NCBI RefSeq assembly: GCF_000696185.1
Contig: NZ_KK853997.1
Location: 3,270,907-3,334,906, forward strand
DNA from: Kitasatospora cheerisanensis KCTC 2395
GTDB lineage: Bacteria > Actinomycetota > Actinomycetes > Streptomycetales > Streptomycetaceae
DNA length: 64,000 nucleotides
Reading direction: 5' to 3'
Shown: piece by piece, positions 9,593-49,279 of the stretch
Layout of the letters: each line of letters starts with the position of its first letter
Numbering within the stretch: position 1 is the stretch's first letter
Translations under genes and position numbers: made by a program
Notes under the pieces: model-generated
What the model was told of the DNA's origin: nothing
Databases searched by the model: none
The model's input: only the letters and a program-made list of their open reading frames with translations

Positions 9593-10942
9593 CTACGCGG
9601 CGTCCAGCACCGACCGCTCGATGCCGCACAGGAACTGGGCCATCCGCGCCCGGTCCAGCAGGGCGCCGTCGGCGACCATCCGCAGTTCGACCGCGCCCGG
9701 CACGGCCACCACGTCCACCGCGACGGACAGCCCGGGGCGGGCCGGGAACGCCTCCGGGAAGGTCAGCTCCCGCTCCGGAACCGGGGCTTCGCCGGGGCCG
9801 TCGGGCATCAGGGCGGCCAGCGGGTCGCGGGTGTCGTTCCAGATCACCGAGTGGTCGGCGAGTTCGACGCCGGCCGCCCGGAGCGCCGCCAGGTCGGCGT
9901 CCAACTGCGGCTTGTGGTAGCCGGAGTGGCGGTAGGCGCTGAGCGCCGGGCCCTGGCAGCGGCGGACCGTGTCGGCGAAGTCCCGGCCCAGCTCCGGGAG
10001 GTGGAACAGGCCCTCCTGGGCGAGCGTGGTGACGGCCTCCGCGGCCTGCTCGGAGAACCGGTTGCCGACCACCACCTGGAACAGCACCTCGCGCTGCCCG
10101 CCGAGCCGCACCAGTTCGGTGGCGCCGGCGGCCAGCAGCACGGTGGCGTCACCGGTCCGCAGCCGGGCGGCGGCCCGGGGCAGCGCGGCGGCCAGTTGCG
10201 GGGAGCGCAGCACCGCGTACGGGAAGGGCCTCTCCGGGTCCGGTTCGCCGGCCGGGCGCGGGAGTTGGGCGCGCGGGCCGGAGCTCAGCCGGTCCCGCCA
10301 GTGCCGGCGGGCGGCGGCGTCCCGGCGGCGGCCGCGCGGCGAGTCCTGCTCGGCGGCCTCCTCCAGCGGCTGCGCGAAGGTCCGCTCCGCGCGCAGCTGG
10401 TCGGCACTCCGCCCGCCCGCCAGCACCGTCAGGTCGCGGACCGCCCGGCGCATGCCCCAGCCGTCCGCGGCGGTGTGCGACAGCACCAGCACGGTCTGCC
10501 GGACCAGGCCGTCGACCACCACCAGGCCGAGCCGCACCGGCCACTCCCGCGGCAGGTCGAAGGGCCGGTCGGCGAAGGCGGCGAGCAGCTCCGCCGCCGC
10601 CCCGCCGGCCTGCTCGGCGTCCTCCCGGTGCAGCACCGTCACCGGCAGCGTCCCGTCGGCGTCGAGCCGCTGGACCAGGTCGCCGTCCTGCTCGATCAGT
10701 CGGGTCCGCAGCGCGTCGTGCAGGTGCAGCAGTTCGGTGAAGGCGCGCAGCGCCTCCGCGAGCGGCAGGCCCGGATCGACGGGGGCGGCCAGCCGCAGGT
10801 TGTACCGGGGCGCGTCGGGGCCGAGGCCGGCCAGCGCGGTGTGGATCGCCCGCTGCCCCCAGGTCGCGGGGCCCTGCCCGCCCCGCGCCCCACGCACCGT
10901 CAACTCCGTTGTGCGGTCGAGTGTTTCGCTCGCTGCGTCCAT
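9593..10942 (-). CDS. stand-alone condensation-domain protein (NRPS C-domain fold)
   Basis: 449 residues covering one condensation domain and nothing else. An early WGQRAIHTAL resembles the first C-domain motif. LSHTAADGWG (about residues 152-161) is the catalytic HHxxxDG motif with the second His, Asp and Gly kept and the first His replaced by Ser. FHLPELGRDFADTVRRC and VIWNDTRDP resemble later C-domain elements. Such free-standing enzymes can catalyse amide or ester transfer, or act in trans with carrier proteins; no adenylation or carrier protein is encoded nearby, so the substrate is unknown. ATG at 10942 lacks a clear ribosome-binding site; a TAGCGT box lies 14 bases upstream. Confidence 0.8.
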   Translation of the reverse strand: MDAASETLDRTTELTVRGARGGQGPATWGQRAIHTALAGLGPDAPRYNLRLAAPVDPGLPLAEALRAFTELLHLHDALRTRLIEQDGDLVQRLDADGTLPVTVLHREDAEQAGGAAAELLAAFADRPFDLPREWPVRLGLVVVDGLVRQTVLVLSHTAADGWGMRRAVRDLTVLAGGRSADQLRAERTFAQPLEEAAEQDSPRGRRRDAAARRHWRDRLSSGPRAQLPRPAGEPDPERPFPYAVLRSPQLAAALPRAAARLRTGDATVLLAAGATELVRLGGQREVLFQVVVGNRFSEQAAEAVTTLAQEGLFHLPELGRDFADTVRRCQGPALSAYRHSGYHKPQLDADLAALRAAGVELADHSVIWNDTRDPLAALMPDGPGEAPVPERELTFPEAFPARPGLSVAVDVVAVPGAVELRMVADGALLDRARMAQFLCGIERSVLDAA

Positions 10943-10953
10943 GGGCGCAGACG

Positions 10954-11961
10954 CTACAAGCGGGGCGGGCGGGGCGGCCAGAGGGCGGTGGCCGCCGGGC
11001 CGGAAGCGGTCAGCGGATCCGCTCGGCGAGCCGGGGGACGGTCGGCAGCGGCGCGCCGTGCGGGGCGGGCCGGCGCTGGCCCGGCAGCGGGCGCCCGGGC
11101 GACCCCCGCGGGCGGGACGGGCCGGCGCGGCACCGCGGCGGTCGGCTGCGGGTGCACCGGCGGGGTATCGGCGTGCAGGCCGAGCGCGGCGACCGAGACC
11201 TGCACGCCGCAGTCGGCGAGCGCGTCGAGTTCGCGGGCCGTCGGGTCCTCGGCGGCGGTGTGCTCGTCGGTGACCAGGCGGGTGATCGCGTCGGTGGCGA
11301 CGGTCTGGAACATGCTGTCCGCGCCGAGCTTGGTGTGGTCGGCGAGGACGATCACCTCGTTGGCGGCCTGCACCAGGGCCCGGTCGACGCTGGCGGACAG
11401 CATGTTGGCGGTGGACAGCCCGCGTTCGGCGGTCAGCCCGCTGCCGGAGATGAAGGCCTTGGTGACCCGCAGCCCGGCCAGCGACTGTTCGGCGCCGCTG
11501 CCGACCAGCGCGTAGTTGGAGCCGCGCAGGGTGCCGCCCGTCATCACCACCTCGACCCGGTTGGCGTGCGCCAGCGCCTGGGCGACCAGCAGCGAGTTGG
11601 TGACCACCGTCAGCCCGGGCACCCGGGCCAGCCGGCGGGCCAGCTCCTGGGTGGTGGTGCCGGCGCCGACCACGATCGCGTCGCCCTCCTCGACCATGCC
11701 CGCGGCGAGATCGGCGATGGCGCTCTTCTCGGCCGCGGCGAGGTGGGTCTTCTGCGGGTAGCCGGGCTCCCGGCCGAAGCCGCCGGGTAGCACCGCGCCG
11801 CCGTGCCGGCGGTCGAGCAGCCCTTCGGCCTCCAGCGCCCGCACGTCCCGGCGGACGGTGACTTCGGAGGTCTGGACGACGCGGGCCAGCTCTCGGAGCG
11901 ACACGGCTCCGTTGGCGCGCACCATCTCGAGAATCAACTGGCGACGTTCTGCAGCAAACAC
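10954..11961 (-). CDS. DeoR-family transcriptional regulator (probable C-terminal frameshift)
   Basis: The N-terminal DeoR helix-turn-helix reads ERRQLILEMVRANGAVS ... TSEVTVRRDVRALE (residues ~5-50). An ISOCOT/DeoRC sugar-phosphate sensor domain follows (about 75-235, with VVGAGTTTQELAR and VTNSLLVAQALA). As read, it is 335 residues with a Pro/Ala/Arg tail. The normal third-position G/C pattern continues in this frame only to about 11100, then moves to the next frame, which ends at a natural stop at 11010-11012. This implies an indel near the run of five C at 11103-11107 and a true protein of about 317 residues. The gene lies 2.3 kb from the purine phosphorylase gene and is the best local candidate for controlling the nucleoside genes. 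Confidence 0.88.
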   Translation of the reverse strand: MFAAERRQLILEMVRANGAVSLRELARVVQTSEVTVRRDVRALEAEGLLDRRHGGAVLPGGFGREPGYPQKTHLAAAEKSAIADLAAGMVEEGDAIVVGAGTTTQELARRLARVPGLTVVTNSLLVAQALAHANRVEVVMTGGTLRGSNYALVGSGAEQSLAGLRVTKAFISGSGLTAERGLSTANMLSASVDRALVQAANEVIVLADHTKLGADSMFQTVATDAITRLVTDEHTAAEDPTARELDALADCGVQVSVAALGLHADTPPVHPQPTAAVPRRPVPPAGVARAPAAGPAPARPARRAAADRPPARRADPLTASGPAATALWPPRPPRL

Positions 11962-11967
11962 AGAACC

Positions 11968-11989
11968 GACGGTAACCCGAGTGACCGTC
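11968..11989. promoter_or_regulatory. inverted repeat upstream of the DeoR gene (possible autoregulatory site)
   Basis: GACGGT and ACCGTC flank 10 bases, 7 bp before the DeoR ATG. The heptamer GGTAACC overlaps it at 11971-11977 and recurs at 12011-12017, 40 bp away. None of this matches the CTACGCGCGTAG palindrome found at the nucleoside genes. Otherwise the gap 11962-12122 shows nothing identifiable. Confidence 0.35.
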
Positions 11990-12122
11990 TGCTTTCAGGC
12001 GTTTGCACCTGGTAACCGGATTTGCTCACCCGGGAGCGGCGCACGACCGTACAATGCGCGCTCCGCCGGGCGGGTGAGCCGGGCGGCGCGCGCCCGGCCC
12101 GGCCCGAACACCTGGCGGAACG

Positions 12123-14267: not shown

Positions 14268-14279
14268 CTACGCGCGTAG
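14268..14279. promoter_or_regulatory. nucleoside-regulon operator CTACGCGCGTAG (exact), purine phosphorylase gene
   Basis: A perfect 12-bp palindrome ending 25 bp before the GTG of the purine nucleoside phosphorylase gene. A TATCCT -10 box follows at 14292-14297, placing the operator over the expected -35 region. Identical copies precede deoC and add. Confidence 0.75.
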
Positions 14280-14304: not shown

Positions 14305-15135
14305 GTGAACGCATCTCCTCAGACGGTCGTCTCCGCCGACCCCTACGCCGCCGCCCGGGAAGCCGCCGACCGGCTGCGCGAACTCACCGGCGCCGAGCGC
14401 CACGACGTCGCCCTGGTGATGGGCTCCGGCTGGGTGCCGGCCGCCGACGCCCTCGGCGAGACCCTCGCGGAATTCCCGGTCACCGCCCTGCCCGGCTTCC
14501 CCGCCCCCGCCGTGGCCGGCCACGCCGGCACCGTCCGCTCGGTGCGGATGCCCGGCGACGGCGACCGCCGCGCCCTGGTCTTCCTCGGCCGCAACCACTA
14601 CTACGAGGGCCACGGCGTGGCCACCGTGGTGCACGGCGTGCGCACCGCCGCCGCGGCCGGCTGCCGGACCATCGTGCTCACCAACGGCTGCGGCGGCCTG
14701 CGCCGCGGCTGGACTCCCGGCCAGCCGGTCCTGATCAGCGACCACATCAACCTGACCGCGGACTCCCCGATCGTCGGCGCCAACTTCGTCGACCTCACCG
14801 ACCTGTACTCCAAGCGCCTGCGCGCACTCTGCCGCGAGGTCGACCCGTCGCTGGACGAGGCCGTCTACGTGCAGTTCCGCGGCCCGCACTACGAGACCCC
14901 GGCCGAGGTCAACATGGCCCGGGTGATCGGCGGCGAGCTCGTCGGCATGTCCACCACCCTGGAGGCCATCGCCGCCCGCGAGGCCGGCGCCGAGGTGCTC
15001 GGCATCTCGCTGGTCACCAACCTGGCCGCGGGCATGACCGGCGAACCGCTCAACCACGCCGAGGTGCTGGAGGCCGGCCGCGCCTCCGCCGAGCGGATGG
15101 GCGCCCTGCTGGCGAAGGTCCTGGAGCGGATCTGA
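14305..15135 (+). CDS. purine-nucleoside phosphorylase
   Basis: 276 residues of the trimeric PNP/MTAP family. It splits purine (deoxy)nucleosides with phosphate into base and (deoxy)ribose-1-phosphate. Signatures: [11 protein letters not shown] with the phosphate-binding Ser (about 44-54), GRNHYYEGH (about 94-102), [12 protein letters not shown] (about 128-139), [17 protein letters not shown] (about 190-206) with the purine-site Glu, [16 protein letters not shown], and [10 protein letters not shown]. The GTG at 14305 has no ribosome-binding site, and TATCCT lies 13 bases upstream, so the mRNA is probably leaderless. The operator palindrome suggests repression when nucleosides are absent. A hairpin follows the stop. 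Confidence 0.92.
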
Positions 15136-23472: not shown

Positions 23473-24057
23473 TCAGCCCGCCAGGTACCCCTGGACGGTG
23501 CGGCCCAGCAACGGGACCAGCACCTCCGGGGGTGCCGAGGCGAGCGGCTCCACCGCGATCACGTAGCGGGCCATCGCCAGGCCCACGACCTGCGACATCA
23601 CCAGCTCCACCCGCAACTCCGGCTGCTCCACGTCCAGCCGGGCCGCCACCCGGTCGACCAGCTCGGTCACCATGAACGACCGCATCAGCGCCGCGACCTC
23701 CTCGCTCGCCGCGGCCGTCCGCACCAGCGCCAGCAGCCGCTCGCGCACCGCGGGCTGCTCCCACAGCCCCACCACGAACGCCGCCACCCGCTCCCCGACC
23801 GTCGCCGGGTCGCCCCCGAACACGTCCTCGACCACCGCCCGCGGCTCGAACGGGAACTCCAGCGCGGCCATGAACAGGCGGTCCTTGCTGCCGAAATAGT
23901 GGTGCAGCAGCGCCGCGTCCACCCCCGCCGCCCGGGCGATCGCCCGCATGCTGGCCTTCTGGTAGCCGCGCGCCGCGAATTCGGCCCGCGCCGCGACCAG
24001 CACCACCCCCCGCGTATCCCCACCCCCGGGCCGCCGCCCCCTCGCCTTTTCACTCAC
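23473..24057 (-). CDS. TetR-family transcriptional regulator
   Basis: About 194 residues. The N-terminal TetR DNA-binding domain reads RGVVLVAARAEFAARGYQKA then SMRAIARAAGVDAALLHHYFGSKDRLF (residues ~13-60). The C-terminal domain (about 80-190) is a TetR_C-like helical ligand domain with RVAAFVVGLWEQPAVRERLL. GTG at 24057 is chosen because the next in-frame start upstream (24102) adds a non-conserved stretch; neither has a good ribosome-binding site. It converges on metG, with 7 bp between stops, and is divergent from deoC. Its targets are unknown. Confidence 0.85.
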   Translation of the reverse strand: MSEKARGRRPGGGDTRGVVLVAARAEFAARGYQKASMRAIARAAGVDAALLHHYFGSKDRLFMAALEFPFEPRAVVEDVFGGDPATVGERVAAFVVGLWEQPAVRERLLALVRTAAASEEVAALMRSFMVTELVDRVAARLDVEQPELRVELVMSQVVGLAMARYVIAVEPLASAPPEVLVPLLGRTVQGYLAG

Positions 24058-24260
24058 GCAGCCATGGTGCACCACCAGGGGCTCGGGGAACGGCGAGGCC
24101 ATGTCTGCTGGCGTTCAACAGGGCGCTGGGCGTTCCGCCGTTTCGGCTCCCCGCCGTAAGGCCCGCCGCAGCCACGACCAACCGCTGTCTCCGACCATCC
24201 GCAGACACGGCGCCGCCGTTCCCCGGGCCCCTGAATGTTCTCCCCCCGCCTATCATTCGC

Positions 24261-24272
24261 CTACGCGCGTAG
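24261..24272. promoter_or_regulatory. nucleoside-regulon operator CTACGCGCGTAG (exact), deoC
   Basis: An exact copy of the 12-bp palindrome ends 1 bp before a TATGCT -10 box (24274-24279) and lies inside the spacer to a weak TATCAT -35 (24251-24256, 17-bp spacing). Binding here should block RNA polymerase. Confidence 0.78.
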
Positions 24273-24285
24273 ATATGCTGGTCTG

Positions 24286-25278
24286 GTGACTATGTCCACT
24301 CTTGCAGCCAACGCCCCCGGCGCCACGGGCGGCGGCCTCGCGGACGTCGCGGCGTCCGAGGCCACCTTGCGCCGCTTCCTGCACGGCCTGCCCGGGGTCG
24401 ACCAGGTGGGCCTGGAGTCGCGCGCAGCGACTCTCGGTACGCGGTCGATCAAGACCACCGCCAAGGCCTTCGCCATCGATCTCGCCATCTCGATGATCGA
24501 CCTGACCACCCTGGAGGGCGCGGACACGGTCGGCAAGGTCCGCTCGCTGTGCGCGAAGGGCCTGAGCCCGGATCCCAGCGACCGCACCGCCCCGCAGGTC
24601 GCGGCGATCTGCGTCTACCCGGACATGGTCGCCACCGCGAAGGACGCGTTGCGCGGCAGCGGGATCCAGGTGGCGTCGGTGGCCACCGCGTTCCCGTCCG
24701 GCCGGGCCGGCATGCCGGTGAAGCTGGCGGACACCGCGGAGGCGGTGGCCGCGGGCGCCGACGAGATCGACATGGTGATCGACCGGGGCGCGTTCCTGTC
24801 CGGCCGGTACCTGGAGGTCTTCGAGGAGATCCGCGCCGTCAAGGAGGCGTGCAGGCGCCCGGACGGCAGCGCCGCCCACCTGAAGGTGATCTTCGAGACG
24901 GGTGAGCTGCAGACGTACGACAACGTCCGCCGGGCGTCCTGGCTGACGATGATCGCGGGTGCGGACTTCATCAAGACGTCCACCGGCAAGGTCGCGGTGA
25001 ACGCGACTCCCCCGGTGACGCTGCTGATGCTGGAGGCGGTGCGGGACTTCCGCGCGGCGACCGGCACCCAGGTCGGGGTGAAGCCGGCCGGCGGCATCCG
25101 CACCACCAAGGACGCGATGAAGTACCTGGTGATGGTGAACGAGACGCTGGGCGACGACTGGCTGAGCCCGCACTGGTTCCGGTTCGGGGCGTCCAGCCTG
25201 CTGAACGACCTGCTGATGCAGCGCCAGAAGCTCCGCACCGGCCGGTACTCCGGTCCCGACTACGTGACGGTGGACTGA
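24286..25278 (+). CDS. deoC: deoxyribose-phosphate aldolase
   Basis: About 330 residues. It cleaves 2-deoxyribose-5-phosphate to acetaldehyde and glyceraldehyde-3-phosphate, the last step of deoxynucleoside catabolism. Seen: AFAIDLAISMIDLTTLEG near residue 60, AAICVYPDMV, EIDMVIDRGAFLSG, VIFETGELQTYD, and the Schiff-base lysine segment ADFIKTSTGK (about 224-233), then GVKPAGGIRTTKDA. It is longer than E. coli DeoC (about 260) because of an N-terminal extension, as in other actinomycetes. GTG at 24286 lies 12 bases after the start of TATGCT, so the mRNA is probably leaderless; ATG at 24292 is an alternative. The aldehyde dehydrogenase gene follows after 5 bp. Confidence 0.93.
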   Translation: MTMSTLAANAPGATGGGLADVAASEATLRRFLHGLPGVDQVGLESRAATLGTRSIKTTAKAFAIDLAISMIDLTTLEGADTVGKVRSLCAKGLSPDPSDRTAPQVAAICVYPDMVATAKDALRGSGIQVASVATAFPSGRAGMPVKLADTAEAVAAGADEIDMVIDRGAFLSGRYLEVFEEIRAVKEACRRPDGSAAHLKVIFETGELQTYDNVRRASWLTMIAGADFIKTSTGKVAVNATPPVTLLMLEAVRDFRAATGTQVGVKPAGGIRTTKDAMKYLVMVNETLGDDWLSPHWFRFGASSLLNDLLMQRQKLRTGRYSGPDYVTVD

Positions 25279-37672: not shown

Positions 37673-38821
37673 TCAGGCGCGCGGACCGAACAGCCACTCG
37701 GCCTTGAGCTCCGCGTAGCCCGGCTTGATCACGTCGTTGATCATCGCCAGCCGCTCGTCGAACGGCAGGAACGCCGACTTCATCGCGTTGACGGTGAACC
37801 ACTCCAGGTCGCCCAGCGTGTAGCCGAACGCCTCCACCAGGTGCCCGAACTCGCGGCTCATGCTGGTGCCGCTCATCAGCCGGTTGTCGGTGTTGACGGT
37901 GACCCGGAACTTCAGCCGCGCGAGCAGCCCGACCGGGTGCTCGGCGTACGAGGCCGCGGCCCCGGTCTGCAGGTTCGAGGTCGGGCACATCTCCAGCGGC
38001 ACCCGCTTGTCGCGCACGTACGCGGCCAGCCGCCCGAGCTCCACCCGGCCGTCCTCGCCGACCGTGATGTCGTCCACGATCCGCACGCCGTGGCCGAGCC
38101 GGTCAGCGCCGCAGCACTGCAGCGCCTCCCAGATCGACGGCAGGCCGAACGCCTCGCCGGCGTGGATCGTGAAGTGGTTGTTCTCGCCCTTGAGGTAGTC
38201 GAACGCGGCCTGGTGCCGGGTCGGCGGGTGGCCGGCCTCGGCGCCCGCGATGTCGAACCCGACCACGCCGCGGTCCCGGTGACGGTTCGCCAGCTCGGCG
38301 ATCTCCTGCGAGCGCGCCGCGTGCCGCATCGCGGTCAGCAGCGTCCCGACCCGGATCCGGTGCCCGCGCGCCCGGGCGTTCGCCTCGCCCAGCCGGAAGC
38401 CCTCGTTGACGGCCTCCACCACCTCGTCGAGGCTCAGCCCGCCCTCCAGGTGCTGCTCCGGCGCGTACCGCACCTCGGCGTACACGACGCCGTCCGCCGC
38501 GAGGTCCTCCGCACAGTCCGCGGCGACCCGGACCAGCGCGGCCCGGGTCTGCATCACCGCGCAGGTGTGCGCGAACGTCTCCAGGTACCGCTCCAGCGAC
38601 CCGGAGTCCGCCGCCTCCCGGAACCACTCCCCGAGCGCCTTCGGGTCCGTGCTCGGCAGGTTCCGGTAGCCGCACTCGGCAGCCAGTTCGACGATCGTCT
38701 CCGGCCGCAGCCCACCGTCCAGGTGGTCGTGCAGCAGCACCTTCGGCGCCCGGACGATCTGCTCCGACGCGGGAACGCGCGGGGCCGTGGTGCCCGCGTA
38801 GCCAGGGATCTGCTTCTCCAT
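37673..38821 (-). CDS. add: adenosine deaminase
   Basis: 382 residues. It deaminates (deoxy)adenosine to (deoxy)inosine in purine salvage. Zinc and catalytic residues are visible: [17 protein letters not shown] (HxH), [17 protein letters not shown] (His and catalytic Glu), [15 protein letters not shown] (His), [10 protein letters not shown], and [19 protein letters not shown] (Asp). ATG at 38821 lies 12 bases after the start of a TATGCT -10 box, and an exact CTACGCGCGTAG operator sits 4 bp before that box, so the mRNA should be leaderless and under the nucleoside operator. Confidence 0.94.
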
Positions 38822-38837
38822 TGCCGGAGCATAGCGC

Positions 38838-38849
38838 CTACGCGCGTAG
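38838..38849. promoter_or_regulatory. nucleoside-regulon operator CTACGCGCGTAG (exact), add
   Basis: A third exact copy of the palindrome, reading the same on both strands. On the add strand it is followed by GCGC, TATGCT, six bases and the ATG, nearly the same layout as at deoC. Confidence 0.78.
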
Positions 38850-38903
38850 ATCACCTACCGACCCCGCCGCACAGCAGCCACCCGTTCGCTGCCGCGCAGC
38901 GGA

Positions 38904-39163: not shown

Positions 39164-40120
39164 TCAGTCGTGGTCCAGGATGCTGCCGCGGCGGGACAGG
39201 ACGAAGTCGCGGAAGGCTGCTGCCGGCGGGGTGAGGGGGCGGGTGGTGTGCCAGGCGAGGCCGATGGCCCGGCGGGTGCGGGGGGCGGTGACTTCGAGTT
39301 CGACGACGCCGGGGCGGGGAACCAGGGACGGGGGCAGGAGGGCGACGCCGAGGCCGGCGGCGACGAGGCCGCGGAGGGTCTCGACCTCCTCGCCCTCGAA
39401 GGCGATGCGCGGGGTGAAGCCGGCCTCGGCGCAGAAGCCCTCCATGATGTGGCGCAGCCCGTAGCCCTCCTCGACCGTCACCCAGGTCTCGTTCGCGACC
39501 TCGGCGAGGCGGATGCGGCGGCGGCCGGCCAGCCGGTGGTCCGCGGGGACGGTCAGGTAGAGCCGCTGCTCGTCGAGCGGACGGGCCGTCAGGTCGGGCG
39601 CGTCCGGGAGCGGGGAGACCAGGCAGAGGTCGAGTTCCCCGGCCCGCAGGCGTTCGAGCATCGCGGCGACGTAGTCCTGCACCAGCTGGAACCGCACCTG
39701 CGGGTGCCCGGCCCGGAAGCCGCGGAGCAGGGCGGGCACCGCGTCCGTCCCCATGGTGTGGAGGAAGCCGAACGCGACCCGGCCGGCGGCCGGATCGGCC
39801 TCCGCCCTGGCGGCCTCCGCGCCGCGTTCGACCTCGGCGAGGGCCCGTTCGACGGCGTCCAGCAGCAGCCGGCCGGCCCGGGTGAGGCGGACGGTGCGGC
39901 CCTGCCGGGCGAGCAGGTCGACGCCGAGTTCGGTCTCCAGTCGGGCGACCGCGCGCGAGAGCGTGGGCTGCGGCATGCCGAGCAGTTGCGCGGCCCGGGT
40001 GACGTGCTCCAGCCGGGCGACGGCCGCGAACTCGGCCAACTGCGGTGCGAGGCGCGTCACATCGGTGTCCGGACCGAGCTCCGCGAGGCGGACCGGCGCG
40101 GAGCTGCTCTCATGCGTCAT
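39164..40120 (-). CDS. LysR-family transcriptional regulator
   Basis: 318 residues. The N-terminal winged helix-turn-helix is at about 25-85 (LAEFAAVARLEHVTRAAQLL, MPQPTLSRAVARLETELGVD), followed by a linker helix and a periplasmic-binding-like effector domain (about 110-310; GRVAFGFLHTMGTDAVPALL). The ~25 residues before the HTH are an extension. It is divergent from the MFS transporter, the usual arrangement for a regulator and its target, and a perfect inverted repeat lies immediately upstream of its ATG. The effector is unknown. Confidence 0.9.
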   Translation of the reverse strand: MTHESSSAPVRLAELGPDTDVTRLAPQLAEFAAVARLEHVTRAAQLLGMPQPTLSRAVARLETELGVDLLARQGRTVRLTRAGRLLLDAVERALAEVERGAEAARAEADPAAGRVAFGFLHTMGTDAVPALLRGFRAGHPQVRFQLVQDYVAAMLERLRAGELDLCLVSPLPDAPDLTARPLDEQRLYLTVPADHRLAGRRRIRLAEVANETWVTVEEGYGLRHIMEGFCAEAGFTPRIAFEGEEVETLRGLVAAGLGVALLPPSLVPRPGVVELEVTAPRTRRAIGLAWHTTRPLTPPAAAFRDFVLSRRGSILDHD

Positions 40121-40121
40121 G

Positions 40122-40145
40122 GCATGAATAATGGCTCATTCATGC
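40122..40145. promoter_or_regulatory. inverted repeat GCATGAAT-N8-ATTCATGC between lysR and the MFS gene
   Basis: Perfect 8-bp arms around an 8-bp AT-rich centre, 1 bp upstream of the lysR ATG; a further GCATGAA half-site follows at 40153-40159. Size and position suit the LysR protein's own operator. Confidence 0.65.
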
Positions 40146-40184
40146 ATTGGACGCATGAACCGGCGCGGTCATAGCGTCGACGTC

Positions 40185-41462
40185 ATGCAGCCCGCCAGTA
40201 CCGAGGCGTTCGCGCCCGCTCCCGAATCCGTTTCCGTTTCCGACCTGCGCCTGCGCCCGGGCAGCCGGGACTTCCGCCGCGCCAACCTCGCCCTGTTCGC
40301 GGCGGGCGTCGCCACCTTCGTCCTGCTGTACTCCACCCAGGGCCTGCTGCCGGTGCTCTCCGCCGACCTCGACCTGACGCCCGGTCAGGCCAGCTGGACG
40401 GCCTCCGCGTCCACGCTCGGCCTCGCGCTCGCCCTGCTGCCCGCCAGCGCGCTGTCCGACCGCTACGGGCGCACCGCCGTGATGACGGCCTCCACGCTCG
40501 CCGCCGCGGTGCTCGCCCTCGCGCTGCCGTTCGCCCCCGACCTGACCACGCTGGTGGTGCTGCGGGCCGTCCAGGGCGCGGCCCTCGCCGGGCTCCCGGC
40601 CACCGCGATGGCCTACCTCGCCGAGGAGGTGCACCCGGCGGCGCTGGCCTCCGCGATGGGCCTGTACGTGGCCGGCAACTCGATCGGCGGGATGGGCGGA
40701 CGCCTGGTCTCCGGCTGGGCCGCGGCCGCATGGGGCTGGCGCTGGGGCCTGGCCGTCTCGGCGGCGCTCGCACTGCTCGCCGTCCTCGCGTTCCGGCTGC
40801 TGATCCCCCGGGCCCGGCACTTCCGGCGGGCGCCGGTGGACGCGCGGGCGCTGGCCGCGACCGTCGCCGGGCACCTGCGCAACCCGCTGCTGCTGCGGCT
40901 GTACGCGCTCGGCATGCTGTTCATGGCGGTGTTCGGTGCGGTCTACAACACCGTGGGGTACCGGCTGGTCGCGGCGCCCTTCCACCTGCCGGAGTCGGTC
41001 GCCGCGTCGATCTTCGTGGTGTACCTGGTCGGCACGGCGTCCTCCGCCTCCGCGGGCCGGCTGACGGCGCGCTGGGGCCGCCGCGGCACCCTCTACCTGG
41101 CGATCACCACCACCACGGCGGGTCTGCTGCTCTCGCTGGCCGGCTCCCTGTTCTGCGCGATCCTGGGCCTGGTCCTGATCACCGCCGGCTTCTTCGCGGG
41201 CCACGCCACCGCGTCCTCCGCGGTGGGCCGCACCGCCACCACGGGCCGCGCCCAGGCCTCCGCGCTGTACCTGATCGCCTACTACCTCGGCAACAGCCTC
41301 GGCGGCACGATCGGCGCCGACGCCTACCACTCCACCGGCTGGTCCGGCACCGCCGCCGTCGCCCTCACCGCCATGGCCTGCGCGGCCGGCGTCACCCTCT
41401 ACGCCACCCACCGCGCCACCGCGGCCCGCCGGGCGGTGGCCGTCGATACACTCCGGGCATGA
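40185..41462 (+). CDS. MFS transporter
   Basis: 425 residues, 12 hydrophobic segments. The loop 2-3 motif LSDRYGRTAVMTAS (motif A) is at about residues 90-103 and a related GRLTARWGRRGTL is in the second half; AVQGAALAGLPATAMAYLAEE matches the YnfM/arabinose-efflux-like subgroup (DHA1 drug exporters). It probably exports a small molecule sensed by the divergent LysR regulator. ATG at 40185 is preferred to earlier in-frame starts because of alignment with relatives. Its stop overlaps the ATG of the Uma2 gene (ATGA). Confidence 0.9.
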   Translation: MQPASTEAFAPAPESVSVSDLRLRPGSRDFRRANLALFAAGVATFVLLYSTQGLLPVLSADLDLTPGQASWTASASTLGLALALLPASALSDRYGRTAVMTASTLAAAVLALALPFAPDLTTLVVLRAVQGAALAGLPATAMAYLAEEVHPAALASAMGLYVAGNSIGGMGGRLVSGWAAAAWGWRWGLAVSAALALLAVLAFRLLIPRARHFRRAPVDARALAATVAGHLRNPLLLRLYALGMLFMAVFGAVYNTVGYRLVAAPFHLPESVAASIFVVYLVGTASSASAGRLTARWGRRGTLYLAITTTTAGLLLSLAGSLFCAILGLVLITAGFFAGHATASSAVGRTATTGRAQASALYLIAYYLGNSLGGTIGADAYHSTGWSGTAAVALTAMACAAGVTLYATHRATAARRAVAVDTLRA

Positions 41463-42044: not shown

Positions 42045-43322
42045 TCAGGCGATCCGGTCGAGGACGATCGGGGCCGGGGTGAACTGCGTGCCCGTCGGGG
42101 CGACGGTGATGGCGTCGGTGAGGGATTCGAGGGCGTAGGGGAAGCGCTCGGGGGTGTCGGTGTGGAGGGTGAGGAGGGGCTGGCCGGCGGTGACGGCGTC
42201 GCCGGGCTTGGCGTGGAGCTCGACGCCGGCGCCGGCCTGGACGGGGTCCTCCTTGCGGGCGCGGCCGGCGCCGAGGCGCCAGGCGGCGACGCCGACGGCG
42301 TAGGCGTCGAGGGCGGTGAGGACGCCGGTCGCGGGGGCGGGGACGACGTGGGTCTCGCGGGCGACGGGCAGGGGCGCGTCGGCGTCGCCGCCCTGGGCGG
42401 TGATCATGCGGCGCCAGTGGTCCATCGCGGAGCCGTCGCGGAGCGCGTCGGCCGGGTCCTTGCCGTGGACGCCGGCGGCGGCGAGCATCTCGCGGGCGAG
42501 CGCGAGGGTGAGTTCGACGACGTCGGCGGGGCCGCCGCCGGCCAGCACCTCCAGCGACTCGCGGACTTCGAGCGCGTTGCCGGCGGTGAGGCCGAGCGGG
42601 GTGGACATGTCGGTGAGCAGGGCGACCGTGGCGACGCCGGCGGAGCGGCCCAACCCGACCATGGTGCGGGCGAGTTCGCGGGCGTCGTCGAGGTTCTTCA
42701 TGAACGCGCCGGAGCCGACCTTGACGTCCAGGACGAGGGCGCCGGTGCCTTCGGCGATCTTCTTGGACATGATCGAGGAGGCGATCAGCGGGATCGCCTC
42801 GACGGTGCCGGTGACGTCGCGCAGGGCGTAGAGCTTCTTGTCGGCGGGGGCGAGGCCGTCGCCGGCGGCGCAGATGACGGCGCCGCAGTCGCGCAGGACG
42901 GCGAGCATCTCGTCGTTGGAGAGCAGGGCCCGCCAGCCGGGGATGGACTCCAGCTTGTCGAGGGTGCCGCCGGTGTGGCCGAGGCCGCGGCCGGAGAGCT
43001 GCGGGACGGCGGCGCCGCAGGCGGCGACCAGCGGGGCGAGCGGGAGGGTGATCTTGTCGCCGACGCCGCCGGTGGAGTGCTTGTCGGCGGTGGGGACGCC
43101 GAGCGAGGAGAAGTCCATGCGCTCGCCGGAGCGGATCATGGCGTCGGTCCAGCGGCTGATCTCACGGGGCGTCATGCCGTTGAGCAGGATGGCCATGGCG
43201 AGGGCGGACATCTGCTCGTCGGCGACCTCGCCGCGGGTGTAGGCGTCGATCACCCAGTCGATCTGGGGGTCGGTCAGCTCGCCCCGGTCGCGCTTGGCCC
43301 GGATGACGGAGATGGCGTCCAT
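42045..43322 (-). CDS. deoA: thymidine phosphorylase
   Basis: 425 residues of nucleoside phosphorylase family II. It converts thymidine or deoxyuridine plus phosphate to base and deoxyribose-1-phosphate. Seen: TADKHSTGGVGDKITLPLAP (phosphate-binding, about 80-99), QLSGRGLGHTGGTLDKLESI, SSIMSKKIAEGTGALVLDVK, and a C-terminal GDAVTAGQPLLTLHTD. ATG at 43322 has TGGAG about 9 bases upstream. The 100-bp gap to cdd contains a near-perfect operator, a TAGAGT -10 box and a strong hairpin, so deoA probably has its own regulated promoter besides readthrough from the transporter operon. Confidence 0.94.
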   Translation of the reverse strand: MDAISVIRAKRDRGELTDPQIDWVIDAYTRGEVADEQMSALAMAILLNGMTPREISRWTDAMIRSGERMDFSSLGVPTADKHSTGGVGDKITLPLAPLVAACGAAVPQLSGRGLGHTGGTLDKLESIPGWRALLSNDEMLAVLRDCGAVICAAGDGLAPADKKLYALRDVTGTVEAIPLIASSIMSKKIAEGTGALVLDVKVGSGAFMKNLDDARELARTMVGLGRSAGVATVALLTDMSTPLGLTAGNALEVRESLEVLAGGGPADVVELTLALAREMLAAAGVHGKDPADALRDGSAMDHWRRMITAQGGDADAPLPVARETHVVPAPATGVLTALDAYAVGVAAWRLGAGRARKEDPVQAGAGVELHAKPGDAVTAGQPLLTLHTDTPERFPYALESLTDAITVAPTGTQFTPAPIVLDRIA

Positions 43323-43352: not shown

Positions 43353-43383
43353 GAGTGCCGCGGGATGTCCTCCCGCGACACTC
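43353..43383 (-). other. strong hairpin in the deoA leader
   Basis: A 13-bp stem with one G-U pair (43353-43365 / 43371-43383) and a 5-base loop lies between the deoA operator/-10 box and its ribosome-binding site. Its upstream arm touches the operator. It may stop readthrough from cdd, or stabilise or attenuate the deoA message. No T-tract follows. Confidence 0.6.
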
Positions 43384-43394
43384 TACGCGCGTAA
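43383..43394. promoter_or_regulatory. nucleoside-regulon operator, one mismatch (CTACGCGCGTAA), deoA
   Basis: 11 of 12 positions match the palindrome. On the deoA strand its end overlaps a TAGAGT -10 box with TGGCTG about 17 bp upstream, so binding would block a deoA-specific promoter inside the operon. Confidence 0.7.
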
Positions 43395-48159: not shown

Positions 48160-49218
48160 TTACGGAGCGGTCGGAACCTTGGTGGCGCCGCTGGTGATCT
48201 GCTGGGTGGCGGCGTCGATCTTGGCCTTGATGTCGTCGATGTAGCCACCGGTGGTGGCCAGCGAGACGCCGCCGTCCTTCAGGTCGAAGTTCTTGACGCC
48301 GGACTGCACGTTGCCGTCCTTGACCGACTTGACGAAGGAGAACACGGCGGTGTCCACGTTCTTCACCATCGAGGTGAGGATGTGGTCCTTGTACTTGTCG
48401 AGGGCCGGCTGCTTGGCCTGGTCGGAGTCGACGCCGATGGCCCACTTGGTGCCCTGGGCGGTGGCGACGGCCTCGATGGCGCCGCTGCCGGAGGAGCCGG
48501 CGGCGGAGTAGATGACGTCCGCGCCCTTGTCGAGCTGGCCCTGCGCGGCCTGCTTGCCCTTGCCCGGGTCGGCGAAGCCGGTGAAGTCCGGCGGGGTGGT
48601 CAGGTAGGTGACCTCGACCGCGATGCTCGGGTCGACGGACTTGGCGCCCGCGGTGTAGCCGGCCTCGAACTTCTTGATCAGCTCGGACTGCACGCCGCCG
48701 ATGAAGCCGATGTGCTTGGTCTTCGACTTGTTGGCCGCGGCCACGCCCGCCAGGAACGAGCCCTGCTCCTCCGAGAAGGTCAGCGAGGTCACGTTGGACG
48801 GCTGGTCGGGCGAGTTGGAGTCGATGATCGCGAACTTGACGTTCGGGTTGTCCTTGGCGACCTTGTTGACCGCGTCCTGGTAGACGAAGCCGACCGCGAT
48901 GACCGGGTTGAAGCCGCTGGTGACCAGGGACTTCAGGCGCTGCTCCTTGTCGCCCTCCGACTCGCCGGACTTGGCCTCGGCCTCGTTGATGACGGCGCCC
49001 AGGTCGGACTTGGCCTTGTCCAGACCACGCGCGGCCGAGTCGTTGAAGGACTGGTCACCGCGGCCGCCGATGTCGTAGGCCATGCCGACCTTGAGACCGG
49101 AGCCGCCGCCGGCGGAGGCGGTGTTGTTGTCGGTGCTCTTTGCGCCGCAGGCGGCGAGCGAGGCGATGCCCAGGGAACCCGAGAGCACGGCCGCGGCGAG
49201 CTTGAGTGAACGGCGCAA
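48160..49218 (-). CDS. BMP-family nucleoside-binding lipoprotein of an ABC transporter
   Basis: 352 residues. Signal peptide with lipobox LAAC (about residue 24). The BMP/PnrA family is recognised by VGMAYDIGGRGDQSFNDSA near residue 45, KFAIIDSNSPDQPSNV, VTSLTFSEEQGSFLAGVAA, HIGFIGGVQSELIKKFEAGY, and VIYSAAGSSGSGAIEA. It captures nucleosides outside the membrane for the permeases. It starts at TTG (49218) with AAGGAG 8 bases upstream. First gene of the operon; a two-mismatch copy of the nucleoside operator lies 50 bp upstream, over a possible TACGGT -10 box (49264-49269). Confidence 0.93.
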   Translation of the reverse strand: MRRSLKLAAAVLSGSLGIASLAACGAKSTDNNTASAGGGSGLKVGMAYDIGGRGDQSFNDSAARGLDKAKSDLGAVINEAEAKSGESEGDKEQRLKSLVTSGFNPVIAVGFVYQDAVNKVAKDNPNVKFAIIDSNSPDQPSNVTSLTFSEEQGSFLAGVAAANKSKTKHIGFIGGVQSELIKKFEAGYTAGAKSVDPSIAVEVTYLTTPPDFTGFADPGKGKQAAQGQLDKGADVIYSAAGSSGSGAIEAVATAQGTKWAIGVDSDQAKQPALDKYKDHILTSMVKNVDTAVFSFVKSVKDGNVQSGVKNFDLKDGGVSLATTGGYIDDIKAKIDAATQQITSGATKVPTAP

Positions 49219-49267: not shown

Positions 49268-49279
49268 TAACGCGCGTAG
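49268..49279. promoter_or_regulatory. nucleoside-regulon operator, two mismatches (TAACGCGCGTAG), transporter operon
   Basis: 10 of 12 positions match; the half-site CGCGTAG is intact. The site overlaps a possible -10 box (TACGGT on the minus strand) about 50 bp before the binding-protein start. The rest of the gap (49219-49440) shows nothing else clear. Confidence 0.6.

Follow-up and report, generated by a model that had tools for sequence, protein, structure and literature searches.

Described systems closest to the locus

The described systems that come closest to the locus studied here are Escherichia coli DeoR, the AgaR/GlpR-type members of the DeoR family, the LacI-type PurR of Gammaproteobacteria, and a LacI-type gene of the SCO4158 kind; the LysR-type PunR of E. 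coli offers a further comparison. For PurR, genes of de novo purine synthesis are preceded by one palindrome with a central CG (PMC4052901). In the same survey, 1251 of 1303 LacI-type motifs are even palindromes, 1173 with a central CG, most motifs are 16-22 nt long, and under half of the global LacI regulators are autoregulated. The PunR study (PMC8376909) describes a purine regulator of the LysR type, encoded divergently from an MFS transporter, with a 23-bp consensus motif. SCO4920 and SCO4914 are a DeoR-family protein and deoC.

The stretch of DNA analysed here, called the window below, covers 64 kb of the 8.17-Mb genome of Kitasatospora cheerisanensis (C1:3270907-3334906). It encodes a protein of the same family as E. 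coli DeoR with nucleoside catabolism genes nearby, and a divergent LysR and MFS gene pair beside add (39164-41462) that resembles the punR-punC arrangement. A CG-centred palindrome precedes de novo purine genes in this genome too, as with PurR, but its sequence and length differ, and its candidate regulon adds nucleoside catabolism, deoC, and secreted nucleases.

A DeoR/AgaR-type regulator gene beside pnp

An earlier reading of the same DNA, made from the letters alone (the sequence-only reading), had placed a DeoR-type gene with a sensor domain 2.3 kb from pnp.

10954..11961, minus strand: deoR, DeoR/AgaR-type regulator gene (PF08220 and PF00455), start codon GTG at 11959-11961
14305..15135, plus strand: pnp, purine-nucleoside phosphorylase (TIGR01698 above cut-off)

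The domain matches bear this out. HTH_DeoR (PF08220) was found at 2.6e-14 with 53.1 bits against a gathering score of 21, and DeoRC (PF00455) at 4.2e-50 with 170.3 bits against 31.8, such that both domains that define the family exceed their gathering scores; the start of deoR lies 2.34 kb from that of pnp (14305). The nearest named relative of the pnp locus is that of Kitasatospora griseola, at 97%. Among NCBIfam models AgaR ranked best, followed by GlpR, YgbI, and others, every one below its cut-off. The AgaR equivalog (NF040755) scored 186.2 bits against a cut-off of 260 and the E. coli DeoR equivalog (NF007961), ranked tenth, 71.9 bits against 244, which does not support equating the window protein with E. 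coli DeoR. With the AgaR/GlpR-type members the window protein has HTH_DeoR and DeoRC in common, and several of its relatives adjoin sugar-type ABC transporters or an aldose 1-epimerase, a further resemblance. It differs from them in that it carries an extra tail, scores under every curated DeoR-type cut-off shown, and adjoins pnp.

The DNA-binding region is nearly invariant, with the same 34 residues in 68 of 75 DeoR proteins. These proteins have a median length of 323 aa (n = 75), which includes the extra tail. In the window the helix-turn-helix and sensor are conserved at about 11197-11961, and the C-terminal tail (11000-11110) is frameshifted relative to the K. griseola locus L007. The end of the open reading frame at 10954 is thus probably not the homologous deoR stop, judging from this alignment, and an assembly error and a real mutation are indistinguishable as causes. 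A lone condensation-domain protein (PF00668) is encoded at 9593-10942, flanked by deoR on one side and a biotin carboxylase-type gene on the other.

A palindrome before nucleoside genes

The candidate operator CTACGCGCGTAG occurs in the window in three exact copies (14268, 24261, and 38838), with 0 expected.

14268..14279, plus strand: candidate operator before pnp, exact; exact at 78 of the 80 loci compared, with 1 mismatch at the other two
24261..24272, plus strand: candidate operator before deoC, exact; exact in 56 of 63 loci, 1 mismatch in 7 of 63
24273..25278, plus strand: deoC, DeoC/LacD-type aldolase (PF01791), true start past the operator
38838..38849, minus strand: candidate operator before add, exact
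37673-38854 (open reading frame), minus strand: add, adenosine deaminase (PF00962), true start past the operator
43383..43394, minus strand: candidate operator before deoA (42045-43322), 1 mismatch
49268..49279, minus strand: operator-like site before a Bmp-family lipoprotein gene (48160-49218), 2 mismatches

Sites with 2 mismatches total seven in the window, a number not above chance. Aldehyde dehydrogenase genes (PF00171) come after deoC. The full unit is 14 bp long and consists of two flush 7-bp halves, TCTACGC and GCGTAGA, around a CpG. All listed sites except that of purN have T at -7 or A at +7; the flanking T is found in 80 of 80 pnp loci and 22 of 22 purF sites, and the flanking A in 63 of 63 deoC loci.

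Distribution of the palindrome

Exact copies were found in 248 of 249 Streptomycetaceae genomes, mostly 2-5 per genome, against 0-3 for the reversed control. In a sample of the class, the palindrome was present in all 11 genomes of the family and in 5 of 137 others. The seven loci that carry it in these five genomes hold no relatives of add, pnp, deoC, deoA, Bmp, or nucleoside ABC genes; at one of them (L100) an IMP-dehydrogenase-type gene (PF00478) lies 2.4 kb from the palindrome, a possible purine link. The operator is Streptomycetaceae-specific, as far as sampled.

Sites with at most 1 mismatch are at chance level by number, with 17 in the K. cheerisanensis genome, where the reversed control gives 14, and with 11 against 18, 12 against 18, and 25 against 19 in three others. 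The case for a regulon rests on the exact copies, on their position before related genes, and on recurrence between species.

Genes preceded by the palindrome

The genome of K. cheerisanensis has five exact sites, which precede pnp, deoC, add, purN (L001, PF00551), and the gene of a secreted protein with putative Ig and carbohydrate-binding-like domains (L003:5006-6777). The last may belong to the regulon as a further scavenging protein. Seven of the 12 sites with 1 mismatch precede genes related to purines or nucleosides: a pair stands upstream of a secreted ExeM/NucH-type nuclease (L002), and single sites precede deoA, purS (L142), purF (L004), a secreted 5'-nucleotidase (L143), and a xanthine/uracil-family permease (L144). 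The other five (L140, L141, L145, L146, and L147) are not before named genes. The two nuclease sites are 26 bp apart (L002:5037-5074).

Three further genomes gave similar targets among the fetched 1-mismatch sites, which comprised all but one of those in G343 and all but three each of those in G250 and G112. Named genes lay behind 2 of 6 sites in G343 (nuclease and 5'-nucleotidase; four not), 3 of 5 in G250 (nuclease, 5'-nucleotidase, and purS; two not), and 4 of 18 in G112 (nuclease, 5'-nucleotidase, purS, and permease; 14 not). The nuclease and 5'-nucleotidase sites thus recur in four genomes each and the permease site in two; the purS site is found in four, one of them exact (G133, L184). 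In G343, G112, and further genomes, exact sites also separate Bmp-type genes from nucleoside ABC genes. Family membership was confirmed for PurS (L142, L159, L169, and L184), PurF (L004), the permeases (L144 and L165), the nucleases L002, L157, and L149, and the 5'-nucleotidases L143 and L154, and was assigned by eye for nuclease L161 and 5'-nucleotidases L158 and L167. A carbon-nitrogen hydrolase of G112 (L177) was considered as a ureidopropionase and not counted, its best model being AguB, below cut-off. The purS site (L142, L159, L169, and L184) is located upstream of a divergently oriented gene that is Lsr2-like by eye, clearly so at L159, L169, and L184, and the purine operator might touch a nucleoid protein gene too.

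A purF match was present in 60 of 61 family genomes, and 200 bp upstream of the best 30 of these 60 were searched. Within this set, a palindrome with at most 2 mismatches precedes 20 of 30 purF genes, compared with about 1.5% of shuffles, and two more loci keep TCTACGCG at 3 mismatches. These 22 loci, again from the best 30 of 60, belong to genera g1, g84, g85, and g92; the eight without a similar site comprise six from g2, which we take to be Streptomyces, one from g93, and one from g89. Four unrelated control palindromes were found before 1, 0, 0, and 1 of the same best 30 of 60, and three controls two letters off the operator before 9, 7, and 0, as overlap would allow. Judged by sequence and position, the palindrome is a family-specific candidate operator of purine and nucleoside genes, with a putative regulon that extends beyond what the window showed.

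The promoter of deoR

The palindrome is missing from the promoter of deoR. Its best match there has 5 mismatches, in agreement with the sequence-only reading, which had described a different inverted repeat and two GGTAACC heptamers in its place. We compared 77 Streptomycetaceae upstream regions, that is, 76 loci and the window. The palindrome is exact in 0 of 77, with at least 3 mismatches in the best match, and the proposal that DeoR is not autoregulated through it is therefore well supported. Autoregulation is common but not obligatory, so a deoR promoter without the palindrome is not decisive against DeoR as the regulator of the regulon.

11968..11989, minus strand: inverted repeat GACGGT-N10-ACCGTC, candidate autoregulatory operator, arms over the predicted -10 box and in the spacer
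11969..11974, minus strand: probable -10 box TACCGT, from which deoR would be transcribed without a leader, in strongly conserved columns
11993..11998, minus strand: probable -35 box CTGAAA (conserved), with an 18-nt spacer
12011..12017, no strand: second GGTAACC heptamer, not conserved

The inverted repeat is where the earlier reading had seen it and is the sole exact copy in 64 kb, with 0.03 expected from shuffles. The two heptamers (11971 and 12011) are present as well, though not conserved: 2 of 77 regions have a pair and 11 of 77 have one. They are unremarkable by number, since the expectation for the window is 1.53 copies and 44 of 100 shuffles contained two or more. The strict repeat is kept in 11 of 77 regions, its relaxed form GACNGT-N10-ACNGTC in 61 of 77, and GTTACNGTC in 73 of 77. 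The consensus of the 77 regions ahead of the GTG is gCTGAAAgCAGACGGtCgttgggGTTACtGTCaGTTtc, and the conserved block reaches the start codon. Because the GTG stands 8 nt past the -10 box TACCGT, the deoR transcript is perhaps leaderless. A scan with a promoter consensus found no promoter-like site before deoR. In the loci scanned, the block was found before deoR genes only and before no other DeoR target.

Since the probable -10 box is covered by one arm of the repeat, the conserved block is a candidate promoter as well as a candidate operator. The block could be a core promoter alone, with no operator inside, as it matches a -35 CTGAAA, an 18-nt spacer, a -10 TACYGT, and a leaderless GTG, and the exact repeat is retained in just 11 of the 77 regions. 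We consider this rather unlikely. The spacer bases GCAGACGGTC are conserved almost as well as the two boxes across the 77 regions, and a plain spacer would not need this. The block is consistent with a leaderless promoter whose -10 box and spacer are overlaid by an operator-like repeat, and DeoR probably regulates its own gene via this element of its own, GACNGT-N10-ACNGTC.

Candidate readers of the palindrome

The sequence-only reading had regarded DeoR as the obvious candidate for the regulon. DeoR might have been recruited beside pnp in the ancestor of the Streptomycetaceae and repress the regulon via the palindrome without regulating itself through it, a scenario that we regard as unlikely. 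In its favour, DeoR adjoins pnp in 73 of the 73 loci with enough sequence and is present in 247 of 249 genomes of the family (E<=1e-90), and ribose-1-phosphate or deoxyribose phosphate would be a fitting ligand for a sensor of sugar phosphates. Co-occurrence does not discriminate here, since both DeoR and the palindrome are almost universal in the family. In G219, the apparent absence of DeoR is due to a frameshifted deoR copy. A palindrome regulon without DeoR, which the earlier reading had named as evidence against the protein, has one weak instance in G348, an assembly of 460 contigs with 7% contamination. No DeoR passes E<=1e-90 in this genome, whose DeoR-type match reaches just 43%, and the palindromes at pnp and deoC are kept; lpd had no match there either in a search made without a positive control. 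In G156, DeoR is present and its helix is unchanged even though the pnp palindrome is lost and the sole palindrome is a 1-mismatch site at deoC, which argues against DeoR as the reader. So do the 77 deoR promoters, all without the palindrome and with a different conserved repeat instead, and the de novo purine genes in the regulon.

Relatives of DeoR outside the family bear on the same question. They occur in 12 of 137 class-sample genomes (E<=1e-60, 50-71% identity), none of their 12 loci has a palindrome within 1 mismatch, and the relatives do not lie within the fetched stretches around pnp. The pnp synteny and the palindrome are thus confined to the same family, which favours DeoR as the reader. 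The neighbours listed, from 11 of the 12 class-sample genomes and 30 loci of the family f17, include many sugar-type ABC transporters (YtfQ/RbsB-like; best model YtfQ, below cut-off), as well as aldose 1-epimerase, glycosyltransferase-type, and MFS-type genes. At one of the 42 loci scanned, an adenosine deaminase gene (L212:3056-3661) lies beside a relative that is 72% identical, a further point for DeoR. The helix core SEVTVRRD is common to the Streptomycetaceae proteins and these relatives, which stand behind another motif. In f17, where 46 of 120 genomes have a relative, a motif with CGATCA, ATTCGTTC, and CGGTC is found in 19 of 30 fetched deoR promoters, namely the ones followed by a transporter-type gene. 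Should the helix set the specificity, DeoR would not have the palindrome as its site. The f17 motif was not found above chance before Streptomycetaceae deoR, which leaves the helix argument incomplete. Taken together, DeoR is weakened as a candidate despite its place beside pnp. The other option of the earlier reading, that another factor controls the regulon, is favoured by the 12 loci without a palindrome, the shared helix, and the de novo purine targets.

Among the fetched sites of four genomes, counted up to 1 mismatch, no regulator gene was recognised behind the palindrome, except the TetR-type gene below.

23473..24102, minus strand: TetR-type gene beside deoC and divergent from it, not conserved (3 of 63 deoC loci)
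39164..40120, minus strand: LysR-type gene (PF00126/PF03466) next to add, with an MFS gene divergent from it; rival regulator

The palindrome at 24261 sits in the intergenic region of the TetR-type gene and deoC and might be read by the TetR-type protein, but this is very improbable, as the gene is found in 3 of 63 deoC loci, whereas a site within 1 mismatch is found in 63 of 63. By analogy with E. coli PunR and its transporter PunC (PMC8376909), the LysR-type protein beside add could control the regulon; its gene was present in all five deo regions searched, four of which also contain add in the stretch. We consider this quite unlikely, given that the best palindrome match before the window LysR gene has 4 mismatches, that the PunR consensus is a different 23-bp motif, and that the best model of the LysR-type protein, GltC, gave 238 against a cut-off of 350.

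A LacI-type regulator is the first guess from the architecture of the site, a flush even palindrome with a central CpG, when set beside the survey of LacI motifs (PMC4052901). TCTACGC-GCGTAGA agrees with the survey in being an even palindrome with a central CG but, at 14 nt including the conserved flank, falls short of the usual 16-22 nt. We hold a LacI-type reader to be possible, at clearly less than an even chance. One such gene lies near a 5'-nucleotidase gene in two genomes looked at (L180 and L182), and its best models are RbsR and then GalS-, PurR-, and CytR-like ones, all below their cut-offs. It is presumably SCO4158, judging by synteny. Only palindrome matches with 2 mismatches lie ahead of it. 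SCO4158 adjoins glnR in S. coelicolor (PMC9739823), whereas here it is near a gene of the regulon, and this proximity makes it a weak lead as a reader of the palindrome.

Proposed mechanism and significance

We lean slightly toward the reading that another regulator reads the palindrome and that DeoR is a local, probably autoregulated neighbour. There would then be two separate regulatory elements, the operator of the palindrome regulon and the block of deoR. CTACGCGCGTAG would serve as the operator for nucleoside catabolism and uptake, a secreted nuclease, a 5'-nucleotidase, and a purine-type permease, and the regulon would also take in de novo purS and purN, and purF in part of the family. 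The operator is close to the start codons of often leaderless-looking genes, which suggests a repressor. Its reader, a regulator other than DeoR and perhaps of the LacI type, may sense a purine or pentose signal. The DeoR/AgaR-type protein would repress its own gene through the GACNGT-N10-ACNGTC block on the -10 box and spacer.

A literature search, which covered largely sources outside subscription journals, found no paper that deals with this operator. As an exact string, CTACGCGCGTAG occurs in two papers that, to go by their titles, concern DNA structure and GapR. Streptomyces development and antibiotic production are affected by purine supply and guanosine nucleotides according to a review (PMC6627660), in which a text search found neither PurR nor purF.

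For the Streptomycetaceae, we give about an even chance to a broader reading: that one purine operator, TCTACGCGCGTAGA, joins nucleic-acid scavenging (secreted nuclease and 5'-nucleotidase), nucleoside and purine uptake, catabolism of nucleosides and deoxyribose, and de novo synthesis under a global regulator that arose with the family. The de novo part consists of purS and purN, with purF only in the own genus and nearer relatives. Such wide service of purine metabolism by the operator would be the more interesting outcome, one that was invisible from the window alone. An operator common to scavenging, salvage, and purine synthesis would offer a direct handle on their regulator, in the form of a 14-bp bait to capture it.
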